A program made the position numbers and the translations under genes. A model generated the notes under the pieces. That model saw nothing but the letters and a program-made list of their open reading frames with translations. It was not told where the DNA came from and made no database searches. DNA of 50,526 nt, from contig VHAX01000003.1 of NCBI GenBank assembly GCA_016872215.1, positions 72,820 to 123,345 of the forward strand, given 5' to 3'. The DNA is from Sphingomonadales bacterium (GTDB taxonomy: Bacteria > Bacteroidota > Bacteroidia > UBA7662). How positions within the stretch are numbered: the stretch's first letter is position 1; each line of letters begins with the position of its first letter. Positions 1,708 through 20,100 of this stretch are shown here, one piece after another.

Positions 1708-3297
1708 TTAGTAGCCGGGGTTCTGCCTCAGTTTTGGGTTCGCCACGAGGTCGGAAAGGGGCAGGGGATACAACTTGAATTTGGGATCAATTCCCTGGCC
1801 TGCCACTACGCCGCCCTTGAAAGGCCATAGGTAGTCCGATTCTATAAAGCGATCAAACCGGATCAGGTCACTACGGCGGTGTGCTTCCCAATACAACTCG
1901 CGACCCCGTTCATCACATATTTCATTCAGGCTGGGCAATGCGCTCACATTCTGGGAGGTGTTTCCAAAGGCACGCTCGCGCACCTTGTTAAAGGCCTCAA
2001 TGGCGCGAGATGTGTTGCCACCCCCACGTGCTGCGGCTTCGGTATGCATCAGGTAAACATCGGCCAAACGAAACATGGGAAAGTCAATATCCATGAAGTT
2101 CTTTTGGGGGTCTGATCCGAAAGCCCCCGTACGCGTTTTGTTGTTGAATTTAGACACCAGATAGCCCTGACTGAATTCCGACCACACCAACATATCGCGG
2201 GTCATGCCAACCGAATCCATCAGATTGCGGGAATCGCCGGGCCTGAACAAATCACGCAATACGGAGGTGGCCCGGTTTCCGCCCCATCCGCCGTCGGTTC
2301 CCCTCTTGGCACGGTAGGCACTATCGGGCGCTGCCGGGGTGGAACTCTTCACCAAAAATGTGGTACCGCCATAGTTTTGAGAGCGTAGACCATCGAAGTT
2401 AACTGCGAAGATGACCTCGTCGTGACAAAGGTGGTTGTCGGCCAGAAAGAGCCACTGGTAATTCGTCTCCAATTGGTAGCCAGCATCCATAATCTTTTCG
2501 CAATAGGTGATGCAATCCGGAAAGCGGGGGGTGCCGATATATTCTTCGGCATTCAAATACAATTTGGCCAGCACCATCCAGACAGCGGCGCGATCGGCTC
2601 GACCATATTCATTGGCCCTAGGTTGGGGTAGGAGATTTTCAAGGTCTTTCAATTCTTGCTCCACATAGCTGAATAATTCTGCACGGGACGCCTGATCGGG
2701 AACTCCAGAGCCGGGGCGGTCTTCTTCGGTAACCAATGGCACATTTCCAAAGAGGTCAATGGCGTGGTAGTACGATAAAGCGCGTATAAAGCGGGCCTCT
2801 GATTTGTATCCGCGAATACGCTGCTTGTCGGCCGCACTAAAGTTCTTCTCGTTCATCCATTCATCAGAGCAGTAGTAGATGAACTCATTGCACAATGGAG
2901 CCTGATAGAAAATCCGGGCATACATCATATTCACGAACGAGCTTTGTGAGTTCCAATCGGCCTCGTTGAGGTCTCGAATGGATGCATCGTTGGCCCATGC
3001 GCAAACGGCCTCGTCTGTGGGCAGTTCCTGGAGGTTCCACAGCACGCGCAGGTACTGCGAAAAACCCTCATCGCCCGACACGTCACCTTGTCCGGCGGGT
3101 CCAGCATTGCCCGATAGCGATAGTCCACCGTAGATTTTAGCCAGTACATTGATGTAGTTGGCCGGATCGGCATACACCTTGAGGGCGTTCAGGCCGTATT
3201 TGGGTTGAAGATTGAGGGCATCAAAGCAGGATGTCGTTGCGCCCAAGGAAAGTAGGAGCACCAGCATCCAGAGATATGGAAAGCGAATTTTTTTCAT
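1708..3297 (-). CDS. SusD/RagB family nutrient-binding outer membrane lipoprotein
   Basis: This 529-residue lipoprotein would sit on the cell surface and cap the SusC channel, binding the glycan or peptide to be imported. The start at 3297 (MKKIRF) gives a standard lipoprotein signal: a charged start, a hydrophobic stretch and a TTSC lipobox with Cys24; an ATG four codons upstream (3309) is possible. The N-terminal half has TPR-like SusD features (for example residues around KSEARFIRALSYYHAIDLFG), and the C-terminal part has the typical ending with FPMFRLADVYLMHTEAA and RELYWEAHRRSDLIRF. It follows SusC by 30 bp on the same strand, the usual susC-susD order. Substrate specificity is not readable, but the amylase and starch-binding proteins nearby suggest a starch-like glycan. 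Confidence 0.93.
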   Translation of the reverse strand: MKKIRFPYLWMLVLLLSLGATTSCFDALNLQPKYGLNALKVYADPANYINVLAKIYGGLSLSGNAGPAGQGDVSGDEGFSQYLRVLWNLQELPTDEAVCAWANDASIRDLNEADWNSQSSFVNMMYARIFYQAPLCNEFIYYCSDEWMNEKNFSAADKQRIRGYKSEARFIRALSYYHAIDLFGNVPLVTEEDRPGSGVPDQASRAELFSYVEQELKDLENLLPQPRANEYGRADRAAVWMVLAKLYLNAEEYIGTPRFPDCITYCEKIMDAGYQLETNYQWLFLADNHLCHDEVIFAVNFDGLRSQNYGGTTFLVKSSTPAAPDSAYRAKRGTDGGWGGNRATSVLRDLFRPGDSRNLMDSVGMTRDMLVWSEFSQGYLVSKFNNKTRTGAFGSDPQKNFMDIDFPMFRLADVYLMHTEAAARGGGNTSRAIEAFNKVRERAFGNTSQNVSALPSLNEICDERGRELYWEAHRRSDLIRFDRFIESDYLWPFKGGVVAGQGIDPKFKLYPLPLSDLVANPKLRQNPGY

Positions 3298-3327
3298 AGG
3301 GATGGGCATTAATTATTGTTATCCAAA

Positions 3328-6318
3328 TTAGAATTTGACATTCAGGCCCAGGCTGTATACGCGGGCTCTTGGGTAGATGTTGTTGTCGATACCCCCGAAA
3401 ATCTCCGGGTCGATTCCTGAATACTTGCTGAGCACGAGCACATTCTGCACAGAGGCGGTGGCGCGAAGGGCTAAGTTGTTGCCGAAGGGGCGACCAAAAT
3501 CATATCCCACGAAAATATTGTCGAGTCTCAGGAAATCGGCCTTCTCGAGGTAGTAGTCGGATTTCAATTGTGCGAGGCGGAAGTTCGTGTTGAGGTAGTC
3601 GACCGGTACATTATTGATGAAGCCCAGACTACCCCCTGTGGCCGCCAGATTCGCCCCATTGGAATTGACGTTGTTGTAGACATAGCGACCCAATTCGGCT
3701 CTCATCGAGAAACCAGCTGTCCACCGCTTCATACGCAGATTCGAAAAGAAGCCGAGATAGGTGGCAGGGATGGGGTTTTTGCCTTTCTGAAGGTGTTTGG
3801 CGGTCGGACTACTGATCGTGTCTGTGCCGTTGGGTGCCCAATATTTTCCTTCGAGTGGTTTTCCGTCTTCTCCATAGATTTGGCGATACATATAAAAGGC
3901 ATAAGGAGCGAAACCTACACTATGAATCTGTATGGTGTTGCCCACACCGCCAGCGATGCCGCCCACCAGGATGCCCTGGCTTGAAGAGTCCGGAACGCGA
4001 GTCAGCTTTGTGATTTCTGTGCGATTCCAGGTTGAATTCAGCCCGAATTCCAGATTCGTGTTTTTCTGGTCGATCGCCACCAGGTTCAGGGTCATTTCAA
4101 CCCCTTCATTCTCCAGGTCACCCACATTGGTAAGCAATAAATCCGAGAAATTGGTGCCGGCGATGGTGGGAATAACGGCGAGGAGGTCGTAGGTCTTTTT
4201 CTTGTAGTAGTCGACCGCGCCATTCACCCGATTGTTCCAGAAGCCGAAGTCGAGGCCCATGTTGGTGCTGGCGGTTTCCTCCCACTTCAGGTTGGCATCG
4301 TAGCCCTGTGGGCGAAGCATCGGGTAGAATGACTCGCCGAATTGGTATTGTGCCGAAGGTGTACTTTGGGTGTAGGCCGCAACATAACCATAATCGCCAA
4401 TGCCGTCCTGTTGTCCGGTACGTCCCCAGCCCACACGCAGTTTCAGGTTTGAAATCGTGTTGGAACCCACAAATGGGGCCATTTCGCTGATTCTCCAGGC
4501 GGCAGCCACCGAGGGGAACAGGCCCCAGCGGGTTTCCGGACTAAACCGTGATGATCCATCGGAGCGTAGTGTGGCGGTCACCAGCAACTTCTCGTCAATG
4601 TTTACATTCATTCTGCCGTAGAACGACATCAGCGCGTTTTCGGTTTCGAAATCAAACGGTGCTGCTTTTTGGATTGTGTCGCCCTTTACATTCAGATCCG
4701 GGAACGCCGGACTAAAAGTATTCCATTTCTGGAAGCTGTAGCCCCCGGTGAAATCCGTGCTGCTGATGCCTGCAAATTTCTTTTTGTAGTTGAAAAAGGT
4801 TTCCAGCAACTGATTCGACTTCTCCATACTGTATTGGTTGTTGACCCCCTTGCGCACCCAGGCCGATGCAGCGGTGGAGTCGATGAACACCGTGCCCGAA
4901 CTGCTGGAGAAGTCACCCCCCAAACTCAGAAACAGGTGCAGGTCCTTCAATCCTGGCATTTCGAAATCGAACAAAACATTTCCCAGGGAGCGGTTCACGC
5001 CGCTTCGGTCGTCCTTTTGGTTGAGGAGACCAACCGGATTTCGGGGAGACAGGTCGAGTGGACGGGCAGCATTGGCCCATTCGAAATAGCCATTATAAGC
5101 TATGGTGTCGCGGCGCACGGGTCTGGTGGGGTCGAAAACCACTGCTGAACCAATGGCACCTCCGTCTGCGAAGCGATTCTTGATGTGGTAGTATTTCGCA
5201 TTGAGGTCTACTTTCAGGTGATTGTTCAGCAATTTCGGTGTTATGTTTAGATTCATCCCCGAACGTTCCAACTTGCCGGTTCCGAGGTTGCCTTGTTCGT
5301 CGTAGCGCTCCAGTCCTACGCGATAGGGAAGCACTCTGCTTCCACCGGAAAGGGTGAGGTTCACATCGTTCATCAGTGCCATTTGGTAGATTTCATTCTG
5401 CCAGTCGGTCGAGTTATTGGCCGTGGGCTCATTAATCAGTGTTTTCTGACGGGTGCTACCCAATCGGCGGATTACATCTTTCAATTGTGCGGTGTCGAGT
5501 ACAACGATGGTGCGCACGATTTGTTTGGCCGAGGAATTGGTGCTGAGCTCTATGGAGAACTTGCCGGATGCCGCCCTCTTGGTAGTGATGAGGATAACGC
5601 CATTGGCCGCTCGCGAACCATAAATAGCTGCTGCAGAGGCATCTTTCAAGACCGTGAAGCTTTCAATGTCTTCGGGGTTGATGAGTGCCAGTGGGTTGGC
5701 CGCACCAGCAATACCACCGTTGTCGACCGGCACACCATCGATTACAATGAGGGGATCGTTGCTTGCGTTGAGTGAGGATCCTCCGCGTATGCGGATCACG
5801 CTTCCGCTACCCGGCAAACCGCTGTTTTGGGTGATGCGCACACCTGGCGTTTTGCCCACTACCATTTGTTCGGGTGTCGCAAAATTACCCTGTTGGAAAT
5901 TCTTGGAAGGAATGGCACTTACTGCGCCCGTGAGATCACGCGATTGAGTGGTGCCGTATCCTACAATCACAGTCTCACTCAGCATTTTCACATCTTCTGT
6001 TAAAACAAAATTTAAAGTAGAACGGGTGCCTGCGGTGATCTTGGTTGATGAGGTGGCGGTCACATAACCCAGGAAAGAGGCTTGAACGATAATAGTGCCT
6101 GGGACGATGCCGGAGATGGTGTAGCGACCGGTAGCGTCGGTCACCGAGCCCGTGGTGGTGCCTTTGAGGGTCACCGCAGCACCCGGAATAGGCATCTGGG
6201 CTGCATCGAGTACTTGTCCGGTCAGGCTGCCTGAGCTTTGGGCGTTGATTCCCGAAGAAAACATCGTGAGGCAAAAGACCAGAATCATCAGAATTTTTGG
6301 GTAGTTATTCAATTGCAT
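3328..6318 (-). CDS. SusC/RagA family TonB-linked outer membrane transporter
   Basis: This 996-residue TonB-dependent channel is the first gene of a SusC-SusD pair. It starts with a signal peptide (MQLNNYPKILMILVF, cleaved after INAQ). A carboxypeptidase-D regulatory-like beta domain follows (about residues 30-110, with GSVTDATGRYTISGI). Next come the TonB/plug region with ETVIVGYGTTQSRDLTGAVS and the SusC plug signature IRIRGGSSLNASNDPLIVIDG. The rest is a long beta-barrel ending in the aromatic-rich SLGLNVKF. Length is usual for the family. There is no N-terminal signalling (STN) domain, so it should not act as a transducer for an anti-sigma factor, and no ECF sigma or anti-sigma gene is adjacent. 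It diverges from the large secreted protein at 6558 across a 239-bp AT-rich gap that probably holds both promoters. Confidence 0.95.
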   Translation of the reverse strand: MQLNNYPKILMILVFCLTMFSSGINAQSSGSLTGQVLDAAQMPIPGAAVTLKGTTTGSVTDATGRYTISGIVPGTIIVQASFLGYVTATSSTKITAGTRSTLNFVLTEDVKMLSETVIVGYGTTQSRDLTGAVSAIPSKNFQQGNFATPEQMVVGKTPGVRITQNSGLPGSGSVIRIRGGSSLNASNDPLIVIDGVPVDNGGIAGAANPLALINPEDIESFTVLKDASAAAIYGSRAANGVILITTKRAASGKFSIELSTNSSAKQIVRTIVVLDTAQLKDVIRRLGSTRQKTLINEPTANNSTDWQNEIYQMALMNDVNLTLSGGSRVLPYRVGLERYDEQGNLGTGKLERSGMNLNITPKLLNNHLKVDLNAKYYHIKNRFADGGAIGSAVVFDPTRPVRRDTIAYNGYFEWANAARPLDLSPRNPVGLLNQKDDRSGVNRSLGNVLFDFEMPGLKDLHLFLSLGGDFSSSSGTVFIDSTAASAWVRKGVNNQYSMEKSNQLLETFFNYKKKFAGISSTDFTGGYSFQKWNTFSPAFPDLNVKGDTIQKAAPFDFETENALMSFYGRMNVNIDEKLLVTATLRSDGSSRFSPETRWGLFPSVAAAWRISEMAPFVGSNTISNLKLRVGWGRTGQQDGIGDYGYVAAYTQSTPSAQYQFGESFYPMLRPQGYDANLKWEETASTNMGLDFGFWNNRVNGAVDYYKKKTYDLLAVIPTIAGTNFSDLLLTNVGDLENEGVEMTLNLVAIDQKNTNLEFGLNSTWNRTEITKLTRVPDSSSQGILVGGIAGGVGNTIQIHSVGFAPYAFYMYRQIYGEDGKPLEGKYWAPNGTDTISSPTAKHLQKGKNPIPATYLGFFSNLRMKRWTAGFSMRAELGRYVYNNVNSNGANLAATGGSLGFINNVPVDYLNTNFRLAQLKSDYYLEKADFLRLDNIFVGYDFGRPFGNNLALRATASVQNVLVLSKYSGIDPEIFGGIDNNIYPRARVYSLGLNVKF

Positions 6319-6557: not shown

Positions 6558-9500
6558 ATGCGTGTACTCTCCAAATTCCTCGCGCTGGTGTTGTTTGTGT
6601 TGCTGCTGGGTGGCGGCAATTCTTCGGCCCAGCTCAGGTATGTCAATGAAATGTTCAATGACGCCCAACTGACCGTCACAAACAATGTGGTGTTTGGTCA
6701 AAACCACCATTTTTTTCCACCCACCACCACCTATCCTGTACTGGATGTAAAAATGCGTGTATACCAGCCCAATCAAATGGTGGACACACGTACGGATCGC
6801 CCGGTGATCGTGTACATACACGCGGGCAACTTTTTGCCGCCTGTGGTCAATGGAGGTATCGGGGGTTCAATCAATGACAGCGCCGCGGTCAACCTGTGTA
6901 TGCAGTGGGCCAAGCGTGGTTATGTGGTCATTGCCCCATCCTATCGTTTAGGTTGGAATCCGCTGGCAGCAACGGAATTGGAGCGTAGGGCTCAGCTATT
7001 GAATGCGGTGTATCGTGCCATCAATGACATCAAATGCGCTGTTCGTTTCATGCGCAAGACGGTTGTTGAAAGTGGCAACCCCTACAAAATCGACCCGAAT
7101 GACATTGTTCTATACGGACAGGGTTCAGGAGCTTATGTGGCTTTGGCTTATGTGACGATGGACAAGCATTCGGAAATTTCTATGCCCAAGTTCCAGCTTC
7201 CCAATGGCCAGTCGGTAGTGGATACCAATATTGTGGGCAACCTGCAGGGCTTTAATGGTCTGCTGAACGTCAACAACCACGTTGGATACTCATCTTCTGT
7301 TAAAATGAGCATCAACGCGGGTGGGGCTTTGGCCGACACCACATGGCTTGAGGCCGGTGATGCCCCGATGGTATCCTTTCAAGCAGTTCGTGATCCATTC
7401 GGTCCTTATCGCAACGGTATTGTAGTAGTACCGACAACCATGGGTAACGTAGTAGAGGTACAAGGCGCGGGTATTTTCATCGACCGTGCGAATCGCCTGG
7501 GAAACAATGCCGCTTTCAGTAATGCATCGATGTTTACCGATCCGGTTTCGAATCAGGCCCGTTCCTGGTACTACCAGACCATTCCTTATATCTACCCTCC
7601 TCCCAACGACCAAATCAATGTGGGCGGAGGTGAAGGGCTGTTCCCCATTGTTCGTCCGATTCGCAATGTCCCGCCTTTGTACATATTCTCCAACGAGACC
7701 GACCCTTGGACATGGTGGGATTCTGCCACTCTCGTACAATATGTGGCCGCCGTGAACGCTCAAACGGGTGGAACCTACAATGCTGCGTCTCTACATGCAC
7801 AGGGAATGATTGGCAACCCGAACATGAGCCGGACTCATGGCCTTACTTTCATCGATACCATTCAAAGATATATACATCCACGCATTATGAAGGTGCTGCA
7901 ACGCGAGCGCAACATTACTTTCCGCGTGAATATGACCAATCAGGTGGTTGACCCAGCGGGTATGCATGTGGCAGGTAATTTCCAAGGTTGGACCCCTGCC
8001 AACTCGCCCATGTCTGTAGACCCCAATGATCCCAACGTGTGGGTTTATACGGCCAAAATCCCTCAAGGATCTGGAATCGAGTACAAGTTCGTGAATGGTC
8101 TTGGTGGTTGGGAAGGAATTGGCGGATTATCGTGTGCCAATGCTGGTGGTAACCGCCATCTGGCAGTGGAGAACGACACAACATTAGGTTTGGTGGTTTA
8201 TGGTCGTTGCGACAATACACCTCCCGGTTTACCCCGTTCGGTTACCTTTCGGGTCGATATGACGGGTCTCACCGTTTCTCCTCTAGGTGTTCACGTGGCT
8301 GGTAGCTTCCAAGGCTGGAACCCCAATGGCACGCCCATGAGCCAGAGTGCGACCAATCCTTCCATCTATACCTACACAACCCAAATTCTGCAGGGTGTGA
8401 GCATTCAGTGGAAATATATCAACGGAAACGCGTGGGGGAATGATGAGGCTGTTCCCTCAGCTTGCGGACAGGACAACGGATTAGGTGGTTACAACCGCTA
8501 CTTGCTAGTAGTTGGTGACACCATACTCCCCGCTTATCTGTTTGGTAGCTGTAACACTGCAGGAACGCCAATCGTGTACCGCAACGTTCGCATTCAGGTG
8601 AATATGGCCGGTCAGACCATCCACCCAGCGGGTGTAGGTGTGGCAGGTAACTTCCAAGGCTGGAATCCCGCCGCTACACGCATGATTCAATCGTCCTCCA
8701 ACCCCAATGTCTATTACTTCGACACCACATTGGCCGACGGCTATTCTATGAGCTACAAGTTTATCAACGGTGACTCATGGGGACAGGATGAGCCTTCTTC
8801 TGGTCCTTGTTTCAATGGCGGTAACCGCGGTCACAACCTCACAGCAGACACCGTGTTGCCTGCCTACTTGTTTGGCGGTTGCACGACCGGTTTCCCAGGT
8901 GTAGTTAATGGTACGCTGACCTATGACAACACAGCATCGACTCCTATGACCAATACGACTGTGAATCTGGTTTCTTCTGGCAATACTGTAGCAACTGTAA
9001 CAACTTCAGCTACTGGCGGATTCAGTTTCAGCAACGTGCCAAATGGTTCATACGGCCTCGGCTTCAGCACCAACAAGCCATGGTCTGGTGTTAGTTCGAC
9101 TGATGCCCTTCAGGTTTCCCGCCACACAGCTCAGGTAGCCTTGTTGTCCGGCATTCGTTTGTCGGCCGCCGACGTAAATGCGTCAAACTCTGTTACTTCT
9201 ACTGATGCCCTTCAGATTTCACGTCGTGTGGCGCAGCAGATTGCGTCATTCTCTGCAGGCAACTGGAAATATGGCAATCCCAGCATCTCCGTGAATGATA
9301 ACACGGTAACAGTGAACGTTAAGGCTCTGTGCACGGGTGACGTCAACGGTAGTGGAACGCCCAACGTGAATTTGCGTGAGTCGTTCTCTGCTATGAATGA
9401 GCAAGGTGTGGTACATACCTCTGTCTCAGATTATGACTTCAACCTTTATAGCGATCAGGGTTTGTCTTTGGGTGCAGCTACCATCAACCTAACGCTTCCT

Positions 9501-9995
9501 GCCGGAATGGAGGTTACTTCTGTTGTATCTACTGGTCCATCTGCACAGGACGTTGTGTTCCACCAGAAGGGCAACGAACTCCGCATTGCATGGCACACCC
9601 TGAGTCAGTGGAATGTGGCCGCCGGTGCGCCAATCTTCCGCGTATCTGCTAAAGGTCATGTTGCTGGTACCTTGGAAGTGGGCAGCCTCACCGAGTTGGC
9701 CAATTCATGGGCTGAGTCGATGCCTGGATTTGGTCTGCGTGGCCCTCGTTTGGTGTCTGCTCCTGCCGCTCAGTTCAGTGTGTATCCAAACCCCAGCAGT
9801 GGTTTGTTTGAGGTTCAGACGGTGCAGGTTGCTGATGAAATCCTGATTTCGGATGTGATCGGCCGCGAGGTTCGTCGTGTTGTACCGGTTTCTACTGCCA
9901 CTTCTATGAATTTGTCGAACCAGCCCCACGGCGTTTACTTTGTTCAGGTACGCACGGGCAATAATGTGGAAACTAAGCGTTTAGTCATACGCTAA
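6558..9995 (+). CDS. large T9SS-secreted protein: alpha/beta-hydrolase, three starch-binding-like modules, dockerin-like and cohesin-like regions
   Basis: The protein has 1145 residues and a signal peptide (MRVLSKFLALVLFVLLLGG, cleaved after SSAQ). Residues about 40-440 form an esterase-like alpha/beta-hydrolase: VIVYIHAGNF fits the oxyanion strand, and YGQGSGAY (186-193) fits the nucleophile elbow. The nucleophile position in GQGSG (187-191) is Gly, not Ser, so catalysis is doubtful. Three related modules of about 100 residues follow (about 452-552, 561-668, 676-775). Each has a hallmark such as HVAGNFQGW and a YKFVNG/YKFINGD strand, resembling CBM48/AMPK-type glycogen-binding folds. A beta domain (about 783-840), two STDALQ(V/I)SR dockerin-like repeats with DVNASNSVTSTD, a cohesin-like stretch (about 955-1060) and a T9SS type A domain (VYPNPSSG to the final RLVIR) complete it. 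It could be a starch-binding scaffold rather than an enzyme; that is inference. Confidence 0.85.
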   Translation: MRVLSKFLALVLFVLLLGGGNSSAQLRYVNEMFNDAQLTVTNNVVFGQNHHFFPPTTTYPVLDVKMRVYQPNQMVDTRTDRPVIVYIHAGNFLPPVVNGGIGGSINDSAAVNLCMQWAKRGYVVIAPSYRLGWNPLAATELERRAQLLNAVYRAINDIKCAVRFMRKTVVESGNPYKIDPNDIVLYGQGSGAYVALAYVTMDKHSEISMPKFQLPNGQSVVDTNIVGNLQGFNGLLNVNNHVGYSSSVKMSINAGGALADTTWLEAGDAPMVSFQAVRDPFGPYRNGIVVVPTTMGNVVEVQGAGIFIDRANRLGNNAAFSNASMFTDPVSNQARSWYYQTIPYIYPPPNDQINVGGGEGLFPIVRPIRNVPPLYIFSNETDPWTWWDSATLVQYVAAVNAQTGGTYNAASLHAQGMIGNPNMSRTHGLTFIDTIQRYIHPRIMKVLQRERNITFRVNMTNQVVDPAGMHVAGNFQGWTPANSPMSVDPNDPNVWVYTAKIPQGSGIEYKFVNGLGGWEGIGGLSCANAGGNRHLAVENDTTLGLVVYGRCDNTPPGLPRSVTFRVDMTGLTVSPLGVHVAGSFQGWNPNGTPMSQSATNPSIYTYTTQILQGVSIQWKYINGNAWGNDEAVPSACGQDNGLGGYNRYLLVVGDTILPAYLFGSCNTAGTPIVYRNVRIQVNMAGQTIHPAGVGVAGNFQGWNPAATRMIQSSSNPNVYYFDTTLADGYSMSYKFINGDSWGQDEPSSGPCFNGGNRGHNLTADTVLPAYLFGGCTTGFPGVVNGTLTYDNTASTPMTNTTVNLVSSGNTVATVTTSATGGFSFSNVPNGSYGLGFSTNKPWSGVSSTDALQVSRHTAQVALLSGIRLSAADVNASNSVTSTDALQISRRVAQQIASFSAGNWKYGNPSISVNDNTVTVNVKALCTGDVNGSGTPNVNLRESFSAMNEQGVVHTSVSDYDFNLYSDQGLSLGAATINLTLPAGMEVTSVVSTGPSAQDVVFHQKGNELRIAWHTLSQWNVAAGAPIFRVSAKGHVAGTLEVGSLTELANSWAESMPGFGLRGPRLVSAPAAQFSVYPNPSSGLFEVQTVQVADEILISDVIGREVRRVVPVSTATSMNLSNQPHGVYFVQVRTGNNVETKRLVIR

Positions 9996-11292: not shown

Positions 11293-12984
11293 ATGAGAGC
11301 GCAGTTTATTTGGCAAATAATTATAGGTGCCTTGCTGATGGGTAACGGTTTTCAAGCCATTGCGCAGAGCTTTCCCCGCATTATGTGGTGGTACAATACG
11401 GGTGATTTTTCGGCAGGTCAGTCCTCTGCAGCAGACCTCGATGGGGACGGGTTTTTGGAAATTGCCTTTGGTTGTTACAGGAACGACTCTAGCTTGCATG
11501 TCCTTAATGCCGATAACGGAAGCCTGCTTTGGAAATTCAATGCCTCGGCAACCGGCACCCACGGCTGTAACGACGCAGCGCCTTTGTTGACCAATATTGA
11601 CGGATTGGGCGGGCCTGAGGTTGTCCTGGCATCTTCGTGCAACCCTCGAACCTTTGCCTTCAGGGGAAACAACGGGCAACTTCTGTGGACCAACATTGCA
11701 AGGGGTAGCGATTCTCCGCCCACGGTAGCCGACGTAGACCAGGACGGAAAGCCCGAGATTCTACACGGAGAATTCGGCGGGTGGGTTCGTTGTATCAATG
11801 CAGAAAACGGAACCACCGCCTGGAATCTGGCAGTCGACCTGAATTCGTGGATACAAACCGCTCCAACCATTACCGATCTTAACCGGGATGGTAAACTGGA
11901 TTTCGTGGTCGCATCCTGGAACTTCAATTATCTGGACTCTGTGTTTGCATTCGATGGGTATACCAGGCAGCGCCTCTGGGCTTTCCCCGTTCATGATCAT
12001 ATGTATCATGGTAGCGCCATTGCTGATCTGAACAGCGACCAATATCCGGAAGTAATCATTGGCGCATATAACGATACAGTTTACTGTCTTCAAGGCCAAA
12101 GCGGTCAACCCTTGTGGAAATTCAAAGCGGGCGGTTATGTAGGAGGTCCTGTTACAGTCGGCGACCTGAATCGGGACGGTTCATGCGAAGTGGTATTCGT
12201 TGGCGGTTCCAAATTAAGTGTTCTGGACGCAACAGGCTCATTGCAATGGGAATACACCATCCCCAATTTCGGGCAATGCTTTCGGGGTGTAGTTTTGGCG
12301 GACATAAACAACGACCTATGTTTGGATCTCGTTTTTGGAACGAGCAAAGGAATTCTGTATGCCCTTAGCGGCTGCAACGGCGCAATGTTATGGAATATAA
12401 ATCTTGCGCAACATTACGGGGATAATCGGTATGAACTTGACCACGCCCCACTTGTCGCTGATTTTGATGCGGACGATACCCTGGAAGTTTTTATCGTTGG
12501 AGGATATGGTATTTATGCCACCAACATGTCTGGAAATTTTGGGAGAGCGTATATGATCAAAGTTGGAAAAGGAAATGGTCCGGCTTGGCTTAACTTCCAA
12601 AGGGATACACGCCGGCAATCTTCCCTTTGCTTTGATGCTTTAACACCTGTGGAAGATCCTGATCTGGAAAACAACGACTTTTCACGGAATGCCCCCACAA
12701 TTTTTCCCAACCCTTCCCGGGGTAATGTGTTTTTGACTTGGAATACGACGCCAGCATCGGCCTTCTCTCTAAGCTATCAATGGTCCATAACGGATATGAT
12801 GGGACGCATCCTCCAAAGCGGGATTGCGCTGCAACCCGGTGACCGCATCGAAACTTCCGGGCTTAGTCCCGGCTCATACTTTCTTCATACCAAAGGTTTT
12901 TATCAGCTTGAATGCGCAACGACGAAAGAAAATTTCATGTCTGTTGGTTCGGTGCTACGTTTCGTTTTGGAAAACGGCCTTTAA
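11293..12984 (+). CDS. secreted FG-GAP/VCBS seven-repeat beta-propeller with T9SS domain
   Basis: This 563-residue protein has a signal peptide (MRAQFIWQIIIGALLMG, cleaved after AIAQ). Seven calcium-binding loops of the FG-GAP type are seen in order: ADLDGDGFLEI, ADVDQDGKPEI, TDLNRDGKLDF, ADLNSDQYPEV, GDLNRDGSCEV, ADINNDLCLDL and ADFDADDTLEV. Each is followed by blades with PQQ-propeller-like GxxLW motifs (GSLLWKF, GQLLWTN, GQPLWKF). This suggests one seven-bladed propeller. Residues from about 468 (TIFPNPSRG) form a T9SS type A sorting domain. Its end is unusual: after ATTKENFMSV, where the domain normally stops, 12 further residues (GSVLRFVLENGL) follow. The role is probably surface binding or adhesion; no catalytic residues are visible. 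It lies between an intact FISUMP gene and a FISUMP relic. Confidence 0.85.
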   Translation: MRAQFIWQIIIGALLMGNGFQAIAQSFPRIMWWYNTGDFSAGQSSAADLDGDGFLEIAFGCYRNDSSLHVLNADNGSLLWKFNASATGTHGCNDAAPLLTNIDGLGGPEVVLASSCNPRTFAFRGNNGQLLWTNIARGSDSPPTVADVDQDGKPEILHGEFGGWVRCINAENGTTAWNLAVDLNSWIQTAPTITDLNRDGKLDFVVASWNFNYLDSVFAFDGYTRQRLWAFPVHDHMYHGSAIADLNSDQYPEVIIGAYNDTVYCLQGQSGQPLWKFKAGGYVGGPVTVGDLNRDGSCEVVFVGGSKLSVLDATGSLQWEYTIPNFGQCFRGVVLADINNDLCLDLVFGTSKGILYALSGCNGAMLWNINLAQHYGDNRYELDHAPLVADFDADDTLEVFIVGGYGIYATNMSGNFGRAYMIKVGKGNGPAWLNFQRDTRRQSSLCFDALTPVEDPDLENNDFSRNAPTIFPNPSRGNVFLTWNTTPASAFSLSYQWSITDMMGRILQSGIALQPGDRIETSGLSPGSYFLHTKGFYQLECATTKENFMSVGSVLRFVLENGL

Positions 12985-13046: not shown

Positions 13047-13730
13047 TTACCACAACGGGCCGGCCTTTCCCGCGGCAACTTTACGAACGCAGCGGACCGA
13101 GAAAGCGGATTTCTTGAAGCCATCCATCATAAAAATTCCCTCCTGGTTGTAATCGACAAAACGCCCCCATGCTCCGTTGATGTTACTGGCCGTTGCGCTC
13201 CACCAATAACCATAGCTGCCGATTCCACCAAATGAACCGTCTGCCGCACGGAATCCCGCGGGGCGTCCGTTGAAGCCCGAGGCATTATTTCCCGGGAAGC
13301 CGGGGGTCCAGCCGGTACTCATCTTCAGGGTAGTTCCTGCAGTTTTTTCGCCACCCAGAAATTGAGTCAGCGCCGTCCACTCGTCATGAGTGGGTACACG
13401 CCAGCCGGTCGGACAAATACCCCTGGGGTCGTTTACCACATGCCAGTTGTAAAGGTAACCCAATTGAGCGACTTTTGATTCAGAGCTGTCGGGTGCTATT
13501 CGGGCCGCGGTATTGGAACGGGCCCATTCTGTCCGGGCCCGAATCTGGGGGATCGGTTCGCCATTGCGAAAGCGAGTAGATTTCAAATTTTCGGTGGTCC
13601 ATTCCAGGGCACCGATGATTTTGGTTGGATATTGATTACCCTCCGAATCCTTCGTTTGAGCCCATGCCGGATTGCAAATCAGTCCTAATATAAATAAACC
13701 GACGCATGCGAATCTACTATATGTTGGCAT
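13047..13730 (-). CDS. FISUMP-domain secreted protein
   Basis: The 227-residue product starts at ATG 13730 (MPTYSRFACVGLFILGLIC, signal cleaved after AWAQ). An upstream start at 13775 would overlap tRNA-Phe and is rejected. The mature protein is one Fibrobacter succinogenes major paralogous (FISUMP) domain: an early GALEWTTENLKSTRFRNG strand, YNWHVVNDPRGICPTGWRVP, HDEWTALTQFLGG, the SYGYWWSAT motif and the C-terminal FSVRCVRK. These domains are extracellular, often on lipoproteins, with C-type-lectin-like predictions but no established function. There is no lipobox and no T9SS tail, so it is probably periplasmic or released. It converges on the propeller gene with only 62 bp between stop codons, and a relic of a paralogue lies beyond that gene. 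Confidence 0.85.
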   Translation of the reverse strand: MPTYSRFACVGLFILGLICNPAWAQTKDSEGNQYPTKIIGALEWTTENLKSTRFRNGEPIPQIRARTEWARSNTAARIAPDSSESKVAQLGYLYNWHVVNDPRGICPTGWRVPTHDEWTALTQFLGGEKTAGTTLKMSTGWTPGFPGNNASGFNGRPAGFRAADGSFGGIGSYGYWWSATASNINGAWGRFVDYNQEGIFMMDGFKKSAFSVRCVRKVAAGKAGPLW

Positions 13731-13740
13731 GTAAGATTTT

Positions 13741-13816
13741 TGGTGGTGATGGACGGAATCGAACCGCCGACACAAGGATTTTCAGTCCTTTGCTCTACCA
13801 ACTGAGCTACATCACC
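13741..13816 (-). tRNA. tRNA-Phe (GAA anticodon), CCA encoded
   Basis: On the minus strand the full cloverleaf is seen: acceptor stem GGTGATG/CATCACC, D-arm GCTC-AGTTGGTA-GAGC, anticodon arm AAGGA-CTGAAAA-TCCTT with GAA, variable loop GTGTC, T-arm GGCGG-TTCGATT-CCGTC, discriminator A and encoded CCA (13741-13743). Length with CCA is 76 nt. Confidence 0.96.
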
Positions 13817-17225: not shown

Positions 17226-20051
17226 TTAACGGCTAATCACCAAGCGTCCGTGGCCCAAACCATCAATGCTGATGAGGTAAAGTCCCGAAGGCAGGGGGTT
17301 GCCTCCATCTGAGTGCAGATTCCAATCCATCACAGATTGGCCGGCTTCCATGCGTAAGGTCGACAACAGTTGTCCCTGTATGTTGCGAATATCTATGGTA
17401 GCTGGTGCAGCCGATTGATCTTCTGCACGTTCAATGAGCGCACGCTCCGAGCTTGGATTGGGATAAATGCGTAGCGCGGGCGCAGTTCCCTGGCTGGCCG
17501 AGAATGGATCCGACAAGACCAGGTTCGGTGGACTCAATCGCTTTGAGGTATACAATCGATAGCCACCCGCCTCGACCTGCATACTGTTGGTTACCTGAGC
17601 GATGTCGATGCTGTCGCCCGTGAAGTATTCATACCAGCGGCCTGTTGCCGGGAAAGTTGCTTGGAAACTAGCATCGGTGATCCCCCAATTGCCTAGCACC
17701 ATCACGTTCATAGAAGGGTGCAGAAGTCGGATTTGCTTGAAGGCACCACTGAGCGCAAAAGTAAAATTGGCTGTGCCAAAAGCAGGTTCAGTCGTTTTCA
17801 GCTGGTTCATGGCCGCATAAATATTGTAAAGTCTGCGTCGGTCGGGGTTGGTGAAGTAGTCCCACCGAACTGGCTTGGGATCTGTGCGACAGCTTTGGTT
17901 GATGCTGCCGTTCGGACAACGATTGATGCTGAAGTCGTAGCCCAGTTCACCAAACTGCCATATCATTTTTGGGCCTGGAATCGACATTTCAAAAACGGGA
18001 ACCAGTTCCATCCGGCGCAAGGCTGTTTGTATGTTTCGGGTATTGTGTGTAGCGTTGAAGCTGCCGTTGGTGAGATTGCGGTACATCAACCGCTCTTCAT
18101 CGTGGCTCTCTGCATAGGTCATGAGGTTAGGTTGCGACCACCCACGTTGAGTATAGGCGCCCCATTGGAAGTTGGAATTGTTGACATAACCCATGGTGCC
18201 CTCGTTGAAATTGTAGTTGAGGTTACCCCAAAACATCAAGCCGTAATTGGCCAACTCGCGCTCTTCTGAATTATCGGCGAAGTGTTCTAGGATCAGATAC
18301 GCAGTGGCGTCATATACCCGAACAGAATCATAGATTGATTTCCAAATACGTACACGCGTGCTGTCGTACTGTCCCCACAGACCGGTGTTGCCTAAGGTGT
18401 TGCGCTGCGTAAATCCTTTTGAAAGGTCGAATCGGAATCCATCGAACCGAAATTCCTGTAGCCAATGCTTCAGCACACGCCGAACGAAGCGTTGGGTGGC
18501 AGGACTCTCATGATTCATGTCGTAGCCCACATTAAAGTCGTGCTTGGCCACCGGATTAAAGTAGGGGCTGTTGGCAGCGGGTTGGTTGGCTGTAGCGTTC
18601 CACCACATTCGCACAATCGGACTCAATCCGAATTGATGGTTCAGTACCATGTCGAGTACAACGGAAATTCCGAGGGTGTGGCAGCTGTCGATGAGTTCCT
18701 TCAGTTTTGTTTCCCGACCGTAGGCTTTATCACTCGCCAACATGAACATCGGATTATAGCCCCAGGAGTTGTTGCCCTCAAATTCGGTTGTCGGCATGAG
18801 TTTGAGGCAATTGATGCCGAGTTGCTTAAGGTAGGAAAGGCTATCGATTACACGTTGGAAGGTGCGTTCTACAGAAAAATCACGCACATGAAGCTCATAA
18901 GCAACCAAATCGCGGGGATTTGGCCTGCTGAAGCTTGTGTTGCGCCATGGGTATGCCGGTTTGTTGGTTTGCAACACAGACACAATACCCGTGGTTTTAC
19001 CGGTGGGGTAGGGTTTGAGGTTCGGGTAAACCGAGGCGGTGATGAACGGATCATTGGACGGATCCAGGATTTTGTGGCTGAACGCATCCGCCACTTTCAG
19101 TTGTCCGTCGATCATATATTGATATGCGTTTTCTTCGCCCGGGTTTAGGTTGCCGATGGTGAGCCAATACCAACTGCTGTCGGGACTCCGCTTCATGAAA
19201 AAGTTGACATCGGGCGTCCAGTTGTTGAAGTCACCCAGCACAAACACATTCTGCTTGTGTGGTGCATAGAGTACGAGGTGCACCGTAGAGTCATTGATTT
19301 CGTTGACTCCATCGTGGACGCCTGCCGGGAGCGGGGCGATGACGGAGTTGGGTGGACAAACCAAACGGAGGGTGTCTGATACGGTTGATGCACCTGTATT
19401 GGCGCGAAATACCAATTCATAGTTGTTGGCTTGTGGAAACTGCAGGCTGATGCTGAGGGTGTCGCTCACCACCGATTGCTGCAGTACGCCATTCACGAAC
19501 AGCGAAAGGGAGCAGACCTGCGACGCTGCGCCAAAAAATGGAATATTCGTTTGTGCGGGTACGAGAAGTTGTCCGCGCGAAGGCGAAAAAATCCGTGCCT
19601 GAAGTTGACCAACCGGATAAATGGGAACGTATATGTCGCTTCCATCGGCCGCTCTTCCTACCACACTGCCGTCGGTATTGCGAAATACAAATGCGAGCGA
19701 TTGCACGATTTCGGCTGTTGGCACGGCATGAAAACTGCGTGGGCGATAACCAAAGCGATATAAGTTATTGCCAAGCGGGGCCATCAGTGTTTGCGGTGTG
19801 GCCACGCCCCAGGTGGAGGGCACGACATGACGCCAATTCGTGGGACTCGTACTGAGATTTGTAAGCACTCCAAAGTGCCCATACACGGGGCCATTGAAAT
19901 TCGCTAAAGCGCCATTCCCTTCTGTTGCATTAAAATAAATGGTCACAGAATCGGTATCGGTGGGGAAGCGGGGCACACTACTCACCTGGGCCAATGCAGG
20001 CAGTTGAGTGGCCAAGAACAAAGCAAAAATGGAAGTGAAGTAGTATTTCAT
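17226..20051 (-). CDS. secreted GH13 alpha-amylase with CBM48-like domain and T9SS domain
   Basis: ATG 20051 is chosen (MKYYFTSIFALFLATQ, signal cleaved after ALAQ); a start at 20087 would overlap the terminator hairpin. The product has 941 residues. Residues about 255-330 form a CBM48-like beta domain (VFVLGDFNNWTP). The (beta/alpha)8 catalytic domain follows with all four GH13 regions: DMVLNH (467-472), GFRFDLSKGF with nucleophile D542, LILEHF with acid/base E589, and ESHDEERL with D651. The Ser-His-Asp-Glu form of region IV resembles glycogen-branching enzymes, but the overall form suits an extracellular alpha-1,4-glucan hydrolase. From about residue 860, IYPNPSSE begins a T9SS type A domain ending in RLVISR. 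It probably releases maltodextrins from starch or glycogen at the cell surface or outside the cell. Confidence 0.92.
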   Translation of the reverse strand: MKYYFTSIFALFLATQLPALAQVSSVPRFPTDTDSVTIYFNATEGNGALANFNGPVYGHFGVLTNLSTSPTNWRHVVPSTWGVATPQTLMAPLGNNLYRFGYRPRSFHAVPTAEIVQSLAFVFRNTDGSVVGRAADGSDIYVPIYPVGQLQARIFSPSRGQLLVPAQTNIPFFGAASQVCSLSLFVNGVLQQSVVSDTLSISLQFPQANNYELVFRANTGASTVSDTLRLVCPPNSVIAPLPAGVHDGVNEINDSTVHLVLYAPHKQNVFVLGDFNNWTPDVNFFMKRSPDSSWYWLTIGNLNPGEENAYQYMIDGQLKVADAFSHKILDPSNDPFITASVYPNLKPYPTGKTTGIVSVLQTNKPAYPWRNTSFSRPNPRDLVAYELHVRDFSVERTFQRVIDSLSYLKQLGINCLKLMPTTEFEGNNSWGYNPMFMLASDKAYGRETKLKELIDSCHTLGISVVLDMVLNHQFGLSPIVRMWWNATANQPAANSPYFNPVAKHDFNVGYDMNHESPATQRFVRRVLKHWLQEFRFDGFRFDLSKGFTQRNTLGNTGLWGQYDSTRVRIWKSIYDSVRVYDATAYLILEHFADNSEERELANYGLMFWGNLNYNFNEGTMGYVNNSNFQWGAYTQRGWSQPNLMTYAESHDEERLMYRNLTNGSFNATHNTRNIQTALRRMELVPVFEMSIPGPKMIWQFGELGYDFSINRCPNGSINQSCRTDPKPVRWDYFTNPDRRRLYNIYAAMNQLKTTEPAFGTANFTFALSGAFKQIRLLHPSMNVMVLGNWGITDASFQATFPATGRWYEYFTGDSIDIAQVTNSMQVEAGGYRLYTSKRLSPPNLVLSDPFSASQGTAPALRIYPNPSSERALIERAEDQSAAPATIDIRNIQGQLLSTLRMEAGQSVMDWNLHSDGGNPLPSGLYLISIDGLGHGRLVISR

Positions 20052-20073
20052 AAGAAGTGCAGAGTTTCTACTT

Positions 20074-20100
20074 AAAAAAAAAGCCACGACTAAGCGTGGC
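20074..20100 (-). terminator. rho-independent terminator between the starch-binding protein and amylase genes
   Basis: On the minus strand GCCACG, a 6-nt loop and CGTGGC form a stem followed by nine T (the A-run at 20074-20082). It would end the transcript of the gene at 20122-20889 before the amylase start at 20051. Amylase expression therefore needs read-through or a promoter inside this region. On the plus strand only four T follow the hairpin. Confidence 0.8.

Follow-up and report, generated by a model that had tools for sequence, protein, structure and literature searches.

We analyzed a 50,526-nucleotide stretch of DNA (the window) of contig VHAX01000003.1 in assembly GCA_016872215.1, from a bacterium placed in the Bacteroidia (UBA7662). 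An open reading frame (ORF) at positions 6558 to 9995 of the plus strand encodes a secreted protein of 1145 residues. Its N-terminal half belongs to an old family of alpha/beta-hydrolases that have lost the catalytic serine and that are commonly encoded directly downstream of a TonB-dependent transporter. In the lineage of the window, the gene stands apart from the transporter and is fused to carbohydrate-binding module (CBM)-like repeats, a dockerin, a cohesin-like domain, and a sorting domain of the type IX secretion system (T9SS). The reading that we favor, with modest confidence, is that of a transporter-linked pseudoenzyme to which glucan-binding and docking modules have been added.

The absence of the nucleophile, proposed in an earlier note made from the letters of this DNA, was confirmed. 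As that note had stated, the position of the catalytic Ser is occupied by Gly189 (codon 189, GGT) within YGQGSGAY (residues 186 to 193), and the oxyanion stretch is HAGNF (residues 88 to 92), which reads HTGNF or HTGSF in nearly all relatives. In the alignment of Gly-type relatives, Gly189 and Asp279 were each invariant (43/43), and the position of the catalytic His was not conserved, being mostly T, N, G, or R. By contrast, Ser, Asp, and His were each present in all 17 sequences of the sister group, which consists of shorter T9SS proteins. The domain in the window retains the Asp of the triad and has lost both Ser and His. On the tree, all 52 Gly sequences lay on one side of a single branch (Shimodaira-Hasegawa-like approximate likelihood ratio test [SH-aLRT], 96), with 20 Ser and 2 Asn sequences opposite, and the nucleophile state changed twice in total, giving a single origin of Gly. 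Asn at the nucleophile (GGSNSGGY) was observed at L087:1142-2011 and L088:880-1743, a second independent loss of Ser. Relatives of the Gly and Ser types, pooled, occurred in 155 of the 247 Bacteroidia genomes sampled. No Ser was found to come from a different strand, named beforehand as evidence that would speak against a missing nucleophile, or from a different register, the elbow aligning without gaps and Gly being invariant. Sequencing error or recent decay of a single codon was rejected, the same residue being present in sister species and in 50-odd sequences.

The AlphaFold2 (AF2) model of the hydrolase domain (pLDDT 88, pTM 0.90) matched esterases in Foldseek, among them Lip_vut4 (6nkf), 7bft, and T. 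terrifontis Est2. The domain shares its fold and catalytic Asp with BD-FAE proteins and such carboxylesterases but differs from them in having Gly for Ser, no catalytic His, and, clade-wide, HTG or HAG in place of the oxyanion motif HGG. Neuroligins are carboxylesterase-fold proteins with members in which Ser is replaced by Gly, and their role is that of binding proteins. They resemble the present family in the same replacement at the same position, in being extracellular, and in a likely binding function, whereas their setting is unrelated and the match of the family profile to neuroligin 4 was weak (2wqz, E 3e-4). Given that Gly never varies across a large clade of Bacteroidia, that His has gone too, and that the Ser-type relatives keep the whole triad, we conclude with high confidence that the Gly-type domain is an ancient, conserved pseudoenzyme family of single origin. 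The hydrolase domain of the window protein is very probably not a serine esterase.

The usual relative is a protein of 515 to 630 residues composed of the hydrolase and a T9SS tail. When neighborhoods from 20 genomes were compared, the only gene conserved across families was that of a TonB-dependent transporter of ~930 to 980 residues, located directly upstream of the pseudo-hydrolase gene on the same strand; the gaps between the mechanically called ORFs were about 22 to 68 bp, with one 19-bp overlap. No SusD-like gene adjoined the pair at these 20 loci. Among the 247 genomes, strong matches to the transporter and to the hydrolase protein were each found in 110, and both were present in 108 of the 112 genomes having either (Fisher p 2e-65, a value that is not an independent-sample probability, since the genomes are related). 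The two genes were adjacent in the same order and on the same strand in 71 of the 108 genomes with both, and 10 of the 37 non-adjacent cases belonged to families with Ser- or Asn-type homologs. Such an arrangement is typical of a transporter that has a surface subunit of its own, and the two proteins would bind each other. By analogy with SusC-SusD, we infer that the pseudo-hydrolase is probably the surface partner of the transporter, a SusD analogue built on an unrelated fold. In both systems, the gene of a TonB-dependent transporter is followed, in a conserved pair, by that of a non-catalytic protein exported to the surface, and the window offers a starch-binding setting. Unlike in SusC-SusD, the partner here is a T9SS-exported alpha/beta-hydrolase rather than a lipoprotein of the SusD fold, and the transporter is SusC-like at its N-terminus only (115 bits on TIGR04056; cut-off 368).

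The hydrolase domain thus has a history separate from the rest of the window protein, as the ortholog of a conserved transporter partner. In the genome of the window, the transporter ortholog (73% identical) lies on another contig (C18) with no pseudo-hydrolase beside it. This site is the ancestral locus, with metK and a 2-oxoacid dehydrogenase gene downstream, as in a second genome (G006). Apart from the window protein, this genome has no Gly-type homolog; one Ser-type paralog is encoded on contig C23. Two genera of the same family (g3 and g4) retain the short operon form; in the window's genus (g1) and its sister genus (g2), the fused form carries three or four CBM modules and the dockerin tail. 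The hydrolase domains of the fused forms of g1 and g2 clustered together on the tree (support 100). Their fused tails did not group, but a one-clade topology was still compatible with the data (p-AU 0.27), and the tree is compatible with either one fusion or two. The SusC gene next to the fused gene in the window was rejected as the ancestral partner, having 28% identity over the N-terminal quarter only, with the true ortholog on the other contig.

From the N- to the C-terminus, the window protein matched BD-FAE, CBM_20/AMPK1_CBM/X25, SdrD_B, Dockerin_1, and a T9SS sorting domain in Pfam and NCBIfam, the best score for each of these domain types exceeding its curated cut-off. A single-sequence search of the PDB gave the T9SS tail as the sole significant match. 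The features are as follows.

6558 to 6629, plus strand: signal peptide, residues 1 to 24 (MRVLSKFLALVLFVLLLGGGNSSAQ), with the cleavage site judged by eye.
6630 to 7910, plus strand: Ser-less alpha/beta-hydrolase (BD-FAE-like) pseudoenzyme domain, residues 25 to 451; PF20434 39.2 bits (cut-off 26.8), Pfam span 77 to 241 (E 6.9e-10), with support from the AF2 model and Foldseek.
7122 to 7124, plus strand: codon GGT for Gly189 at the nucleophile position.
7911 to 8231, plus strand: CBM20/48-like module 1, residues 452 to 558, from Pfam (region 452 to 779 for the three modules) and module alignment.
8244 to 8561, plus strand: CBM20/48-like module 2, residues 563 to 668, from the same evidence.
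8580 to 8894, plus strand: CBM20/48-like module 3, residues 675 to 779, from the same evidence.
8895 to 9086, plus strand: SdrD_B/CarboxypepD_reg-like beta-sandwich, residues 780 to 843; PF17210 30.1 bits (cut-off 29.7), Pfam span 792 to 842, and predicted model.
9087 to 9251, plus strand: type I dockerin with two STDALQ(V/I)SR repeats, residues 844 to 898; PF00404 28.7 bits (cut-off 22.9), Pfam span 845 to 891, with profile matches to the PDB dockerins 1ohz, 2mte, and 1daq.
9252 to 9368, plus strand: linking strands and a third motif, GDVNGS, residues 899 to 937.
9387 to 9764, plus strand: cohesin-like domain, residues 944 to 1069.
9780 to 9992, plus strand: T9SS type A sorting domain, residues 1075 to 1145; TIGR04183 42.5 bits (cut-off 23), with Por_Secre_tail at 1075 to 1144.
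1708 to 6318, minus strand: starch-SusD-like SusD (1708 to 3309) and SusC (3328 to 6318), a pair divergent from the fused gene, given as context and not as the ancestral partner.

The starch-binding-like modules, dockerin repeats, and T9SS tail that the earlier note had described were thus all recovered above the Pfam or NCBIfam cut-offs. The T9SS translocon protein SprA is encoded in the genome, so that the protein has both the type A domain and the secretion system expected of T9SS cargo.

The three CBM-like repeats, of ~105 residues each, scored 38.8 on PF00686 (cut-off 23.3), 30.5 on PF16561 (26.8), and 29.7 on PF22058 (27); the CBM_48 profile itself scored 17.6, below its cut-off of 22.4. 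The W of (Q/N)GW (FQGW), the K of YKF/WKY, and an N-R pair were invariant in the five modules aligned, and the W, K, and N-R positions of the window modules recurred in another protein of this genome, which has six such modules. We take these positions to be equivalent to the glucan-contact residues of AMPK-CBM. The nearest solved structure for the module profile was SusF, a starch-binding protein (E 0.0016), and the modules are likely to bind starch or glycogen. The six-module protein (L134:3682-6999, minus strand; G000:C18:33681-36998) has six CBM48-like modules and the same dockerin tail, and its gene lies 11 kb from that of the partner transporter. The SusD in the window scored 375 bits against the starch SusD model NF033071 (cut-off 725), and an alpha-amylase/CBM48 protein (17226 to 20087, minus strand) is encoded ~7 kb from the fused gene and near a phosphofructokinase gene. 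With the SusCD pair and the alpha-amylase, the region looks like a starch or glycogen locus. The window also encodes an FG-GAP/PQQ beta-propeller protein with a T9SS tail (11293 to 12984, plus strand) and a Fib_succ_major protein (13047 to 13775, minus strand).

In the dockerin, the second loop (DVNASNSVTSTD) has the complete calcium-loop pattern (D1, N3, D/S5, D12). Across 19 aligned tails, loop 2 was canonical or nearly so, and loop 1 kept only its last part (G-x-x-x-x-D). GDVNGS lies at residues 927 to 932, after three strands, and its GDxN was invariant at G927, D928, and N930; we suggest that this motif may complete the first calcium site. The cohesin-like stretch, also proposed in the earlier note, escaped the Pfam Cohesin model: PF00963 gave no match in the protein up to E 1, and the search of the genome gave none at this position. 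It was nevertheless recovered by three comparisons. The tail profile matched the A. fulgidus cohesin 2xdh (E 1.4e-5), hhalign aligned the stretch with the cohesins that Pfam recognizes elsewhere in the genome (probability 96%, E 5e-9), and the model of the tail (pLDDT 90.5, pTM 0.86) had cohesins among its best Foldseek matches (2xdh, 5n5p, 6kgc, and 2jh2; target TM ~0.6), as well as pilins.

The genome of the window contained 18 Dockerin_1 matches above the cut-off and ~10 Cohesin matches. Among 60 relatives, g1 and g2 had 6 to 20 dockerins and 2 to 47 cohesins per genome, and numbers elsewhere were 0 to 4. In the genome of the window, one kind of dockerin stands in the SdrD-dockerin-cohesin-like-T9SS tail, which occurs on an S8 peptidase, an M43 peptidase, CotH, fn3, and CBM proteins, including the CBM48 array; restriction of the tail to starch proteins was therefore rejected. 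A second kind lies at or near the C-terminus, with neither a cohesin-like tail domain nor a T9SS tail, and is carried by an alpha-amylase, S8 and M43 peptidases, and a three-cohesin protein. In a third kind, a Fib_succ_major domain follows the dockerin. Four proteins of the same genome (L200, L201, L137, and L140) have a Fib_succ_major or similar C-terminus after the dockerin, one of them with a beta-lactamase-family domain.

Genes for an alpha-amylase-dockerin protein, an S8 peptidase-dockerin protein, and a three-cohesin-plus-dockerin protein adjoin one another in a cluster on contig C15, which recurs in sister species. The cluster lies at L203:4516-7146 (minus strand; G000:C15:37515-40145), L203:7103-9652, and L203:2324-4588; none of its products has a T9SS tail, though both enzymes have signal-like N-termini. 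In g2, dockerins were found on GH16, GH18, and GH13 enzymes, the GH16 gene being two genes from that of the fused protein. A triple-cohesin T9SS protein is encoded on contig C16 of the window's genome. In a sister species, two ORFs cut by contig ends (L185:1-17211 and L186:2-15817, both on the minus strand; at least 5737 and at least 5272 residues) encode 18 to 19 cohesins alternating with immunoglobulin (Ig)-like modules and a dockerin near the C-terminus, and are ~75% identical over part of their length. These giant proteins could be scaffoldins or adhesins. Given these expanded sets in g1 and g2, which include alpha-amylase-dockerin genes adjoining cohesin genes, a cohesin-dockerin network is plausible.

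The earlier note had further proposed a scaffold that gathers starch-degrading enzymes. For the window protein itself this role is unsupported, because the protein has one cohesin-like domain rather than the several of a scaffoldin, which excludes a multi-cohesin scaffold, and because the same tail is carried by unrelated proteins. At the level of the genome, the idea gains from the multi-cohesin proteins and from the dockerin-bearing alpha-amylase genes that adjoin them. The window protein looks like a T9SS-anchored, glucan-binding member or anchor of the network, not its scaffold.

The reading that we favor would work as follows. The N-terminal half, a T9SS-exported hydrolase without Ser and His, would serve as the non-catalytic, ligand-capturing subunit of one TonB-dependent transporter. 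In g1 and g2, this partner has left the transporter operon and acquired three or four starch/glycogen-type modules together with the common tail of the genus. The T9SS tail would bring the protein to the cell surface. There, alpha-glucan may be retained by the CBMs, and through its dockerin and its cohesin-like domain the protein may join a network of surface proteins, dockerin-bearing alpha-amylase and peptidases among them. The products of the network would be set free near the transporter, and the protein would act as a surface tool that keeps food close to the channel. Several observations weigh against this account. In the genome of the window, the gene lies away from the transporter and has another SusCD pair as its neighbor. 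The link between Ser loss and pairing is imperfect, since the homolog in ten transporter-bearing genomes is of the Ser or Asn type, and kinship among the genomes confounds the co-occurrence. In all relatives, positions 1, 3, and 5 are missing from the first calcium loop of the dockerin. Finally, the dockerin and the cohesin-like domain, which form a compact model, could pack in cis as a mere structural tail.

A broader statement, which is rather unlikely, is that in a widespread Bacteroidia uptake system a T9SS-exported dead esterase takes the place of SusD, forming the lid of the transporter or its capture subunit, and that in two genera this subunit is also wired by cohesin-dockerin contacts to an amylosome-like network at the surface. 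In that network, the dockerin-ended enzymes (alpha-amylase, subtilase, and M43), which lack a T9SS tail of their own, may travel to the surface attached to partners that bear one.

Next in probability, and unlikely, is that the protein is a dockerin-bearing non-catalytic glucan binder that docks on multi-cohesin proteins, the dead hydrolase being an extra binding module and the transporter link historical. The amylosome of R. bromii, with 27 dockerin proteins and five scaffoldins, provides a precedent: Sas20 carries a dockerin and binds starch without being catalytic, and Amy4 has both a cohesin and a dockerin (PMC9112005). The dockerin score, the adjoining alpha-amylase-dockerin and three-cohesin genes in the window's genome and its relatives, the triple-cohesin T9SS protein, the giant ORFs, and the starch-type SusCD pair and alpha-amylase in the window all agree with such a role. 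R. bromii, however, is Gram-positive, with sortase-type anchoring scaffoldins, whereas the window protein has a T9SS anchor, which makes docking unnecessary for surface attachment, and a cohesin-like domain that Pfam does not recognize. Moreover, the same tail is also found on peptidases and CotH proteins, the multi-cohesin arrays may be adhesins, and the hydrolase is 69 to 73% identical to operon-encoded forms, more than a passive relic would keep. Another parallel is the system proposed in Cloacimonadota, with a C-terminal domain (CTD)-anchored giant tandem-cohesin protein and dockerins on GH57, S8, and C25 enzymes (PMC8542988); it belongs to another phylum, whereas the present set is found in two Bacteroidia genera and includes a fusion to a transporter partner.

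It is more doubtful still that the tail is purely structural, the dockerin and cohesin-like domains packing in cis or the SdrD-dockerin-cohesin-like block acting as a rigid T9SS spacer, with no contacts between proteins. The cohesin-like domain is confined to dockerin proteins with a T9SS-type C-terminus, being absent wherever the dockerin ends the protein, and the three-part block was modeled as one compact unit, as this account would expect. Nevertheless, in many proteins the dockerin comes with no cohesin-like domain, many others with true cohesins have no dockerin, and the counts of dockerins and cohesins rise jointly in two genera only. That the Gly-type domain is a moonlighting or re-evolved enzyme using Asp279 and other acids (D76, D107, D157, and D433, all invariant) is very improbable, given that the active site has no conserved Ser or Cys nucleophile or His general base, that His88 is part of the former oxyanion motif, and that neuroligin-type Ser-to-Gly proteins, to which the family has its weak profile match, bind.

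For the transporter-linked pseudoenzyme that we favor, no description of the pair was found in the part of the literature covered, which cannot be searched by homology. A 2018 paper described a lack of cohesins and dockerins as being in line with what other Bacteroidetes genomes show (PMC5831590); the set reported here places a rich cohesin-dockerin repertoire in small-genome, probably freshwater Bacteroidota. The transporter-pseudoenzyme pair, apparently undescribed, is present in ~44% of the sampled Bacteroidia genomes (108/247), and cultivated species allow its function to be tested.

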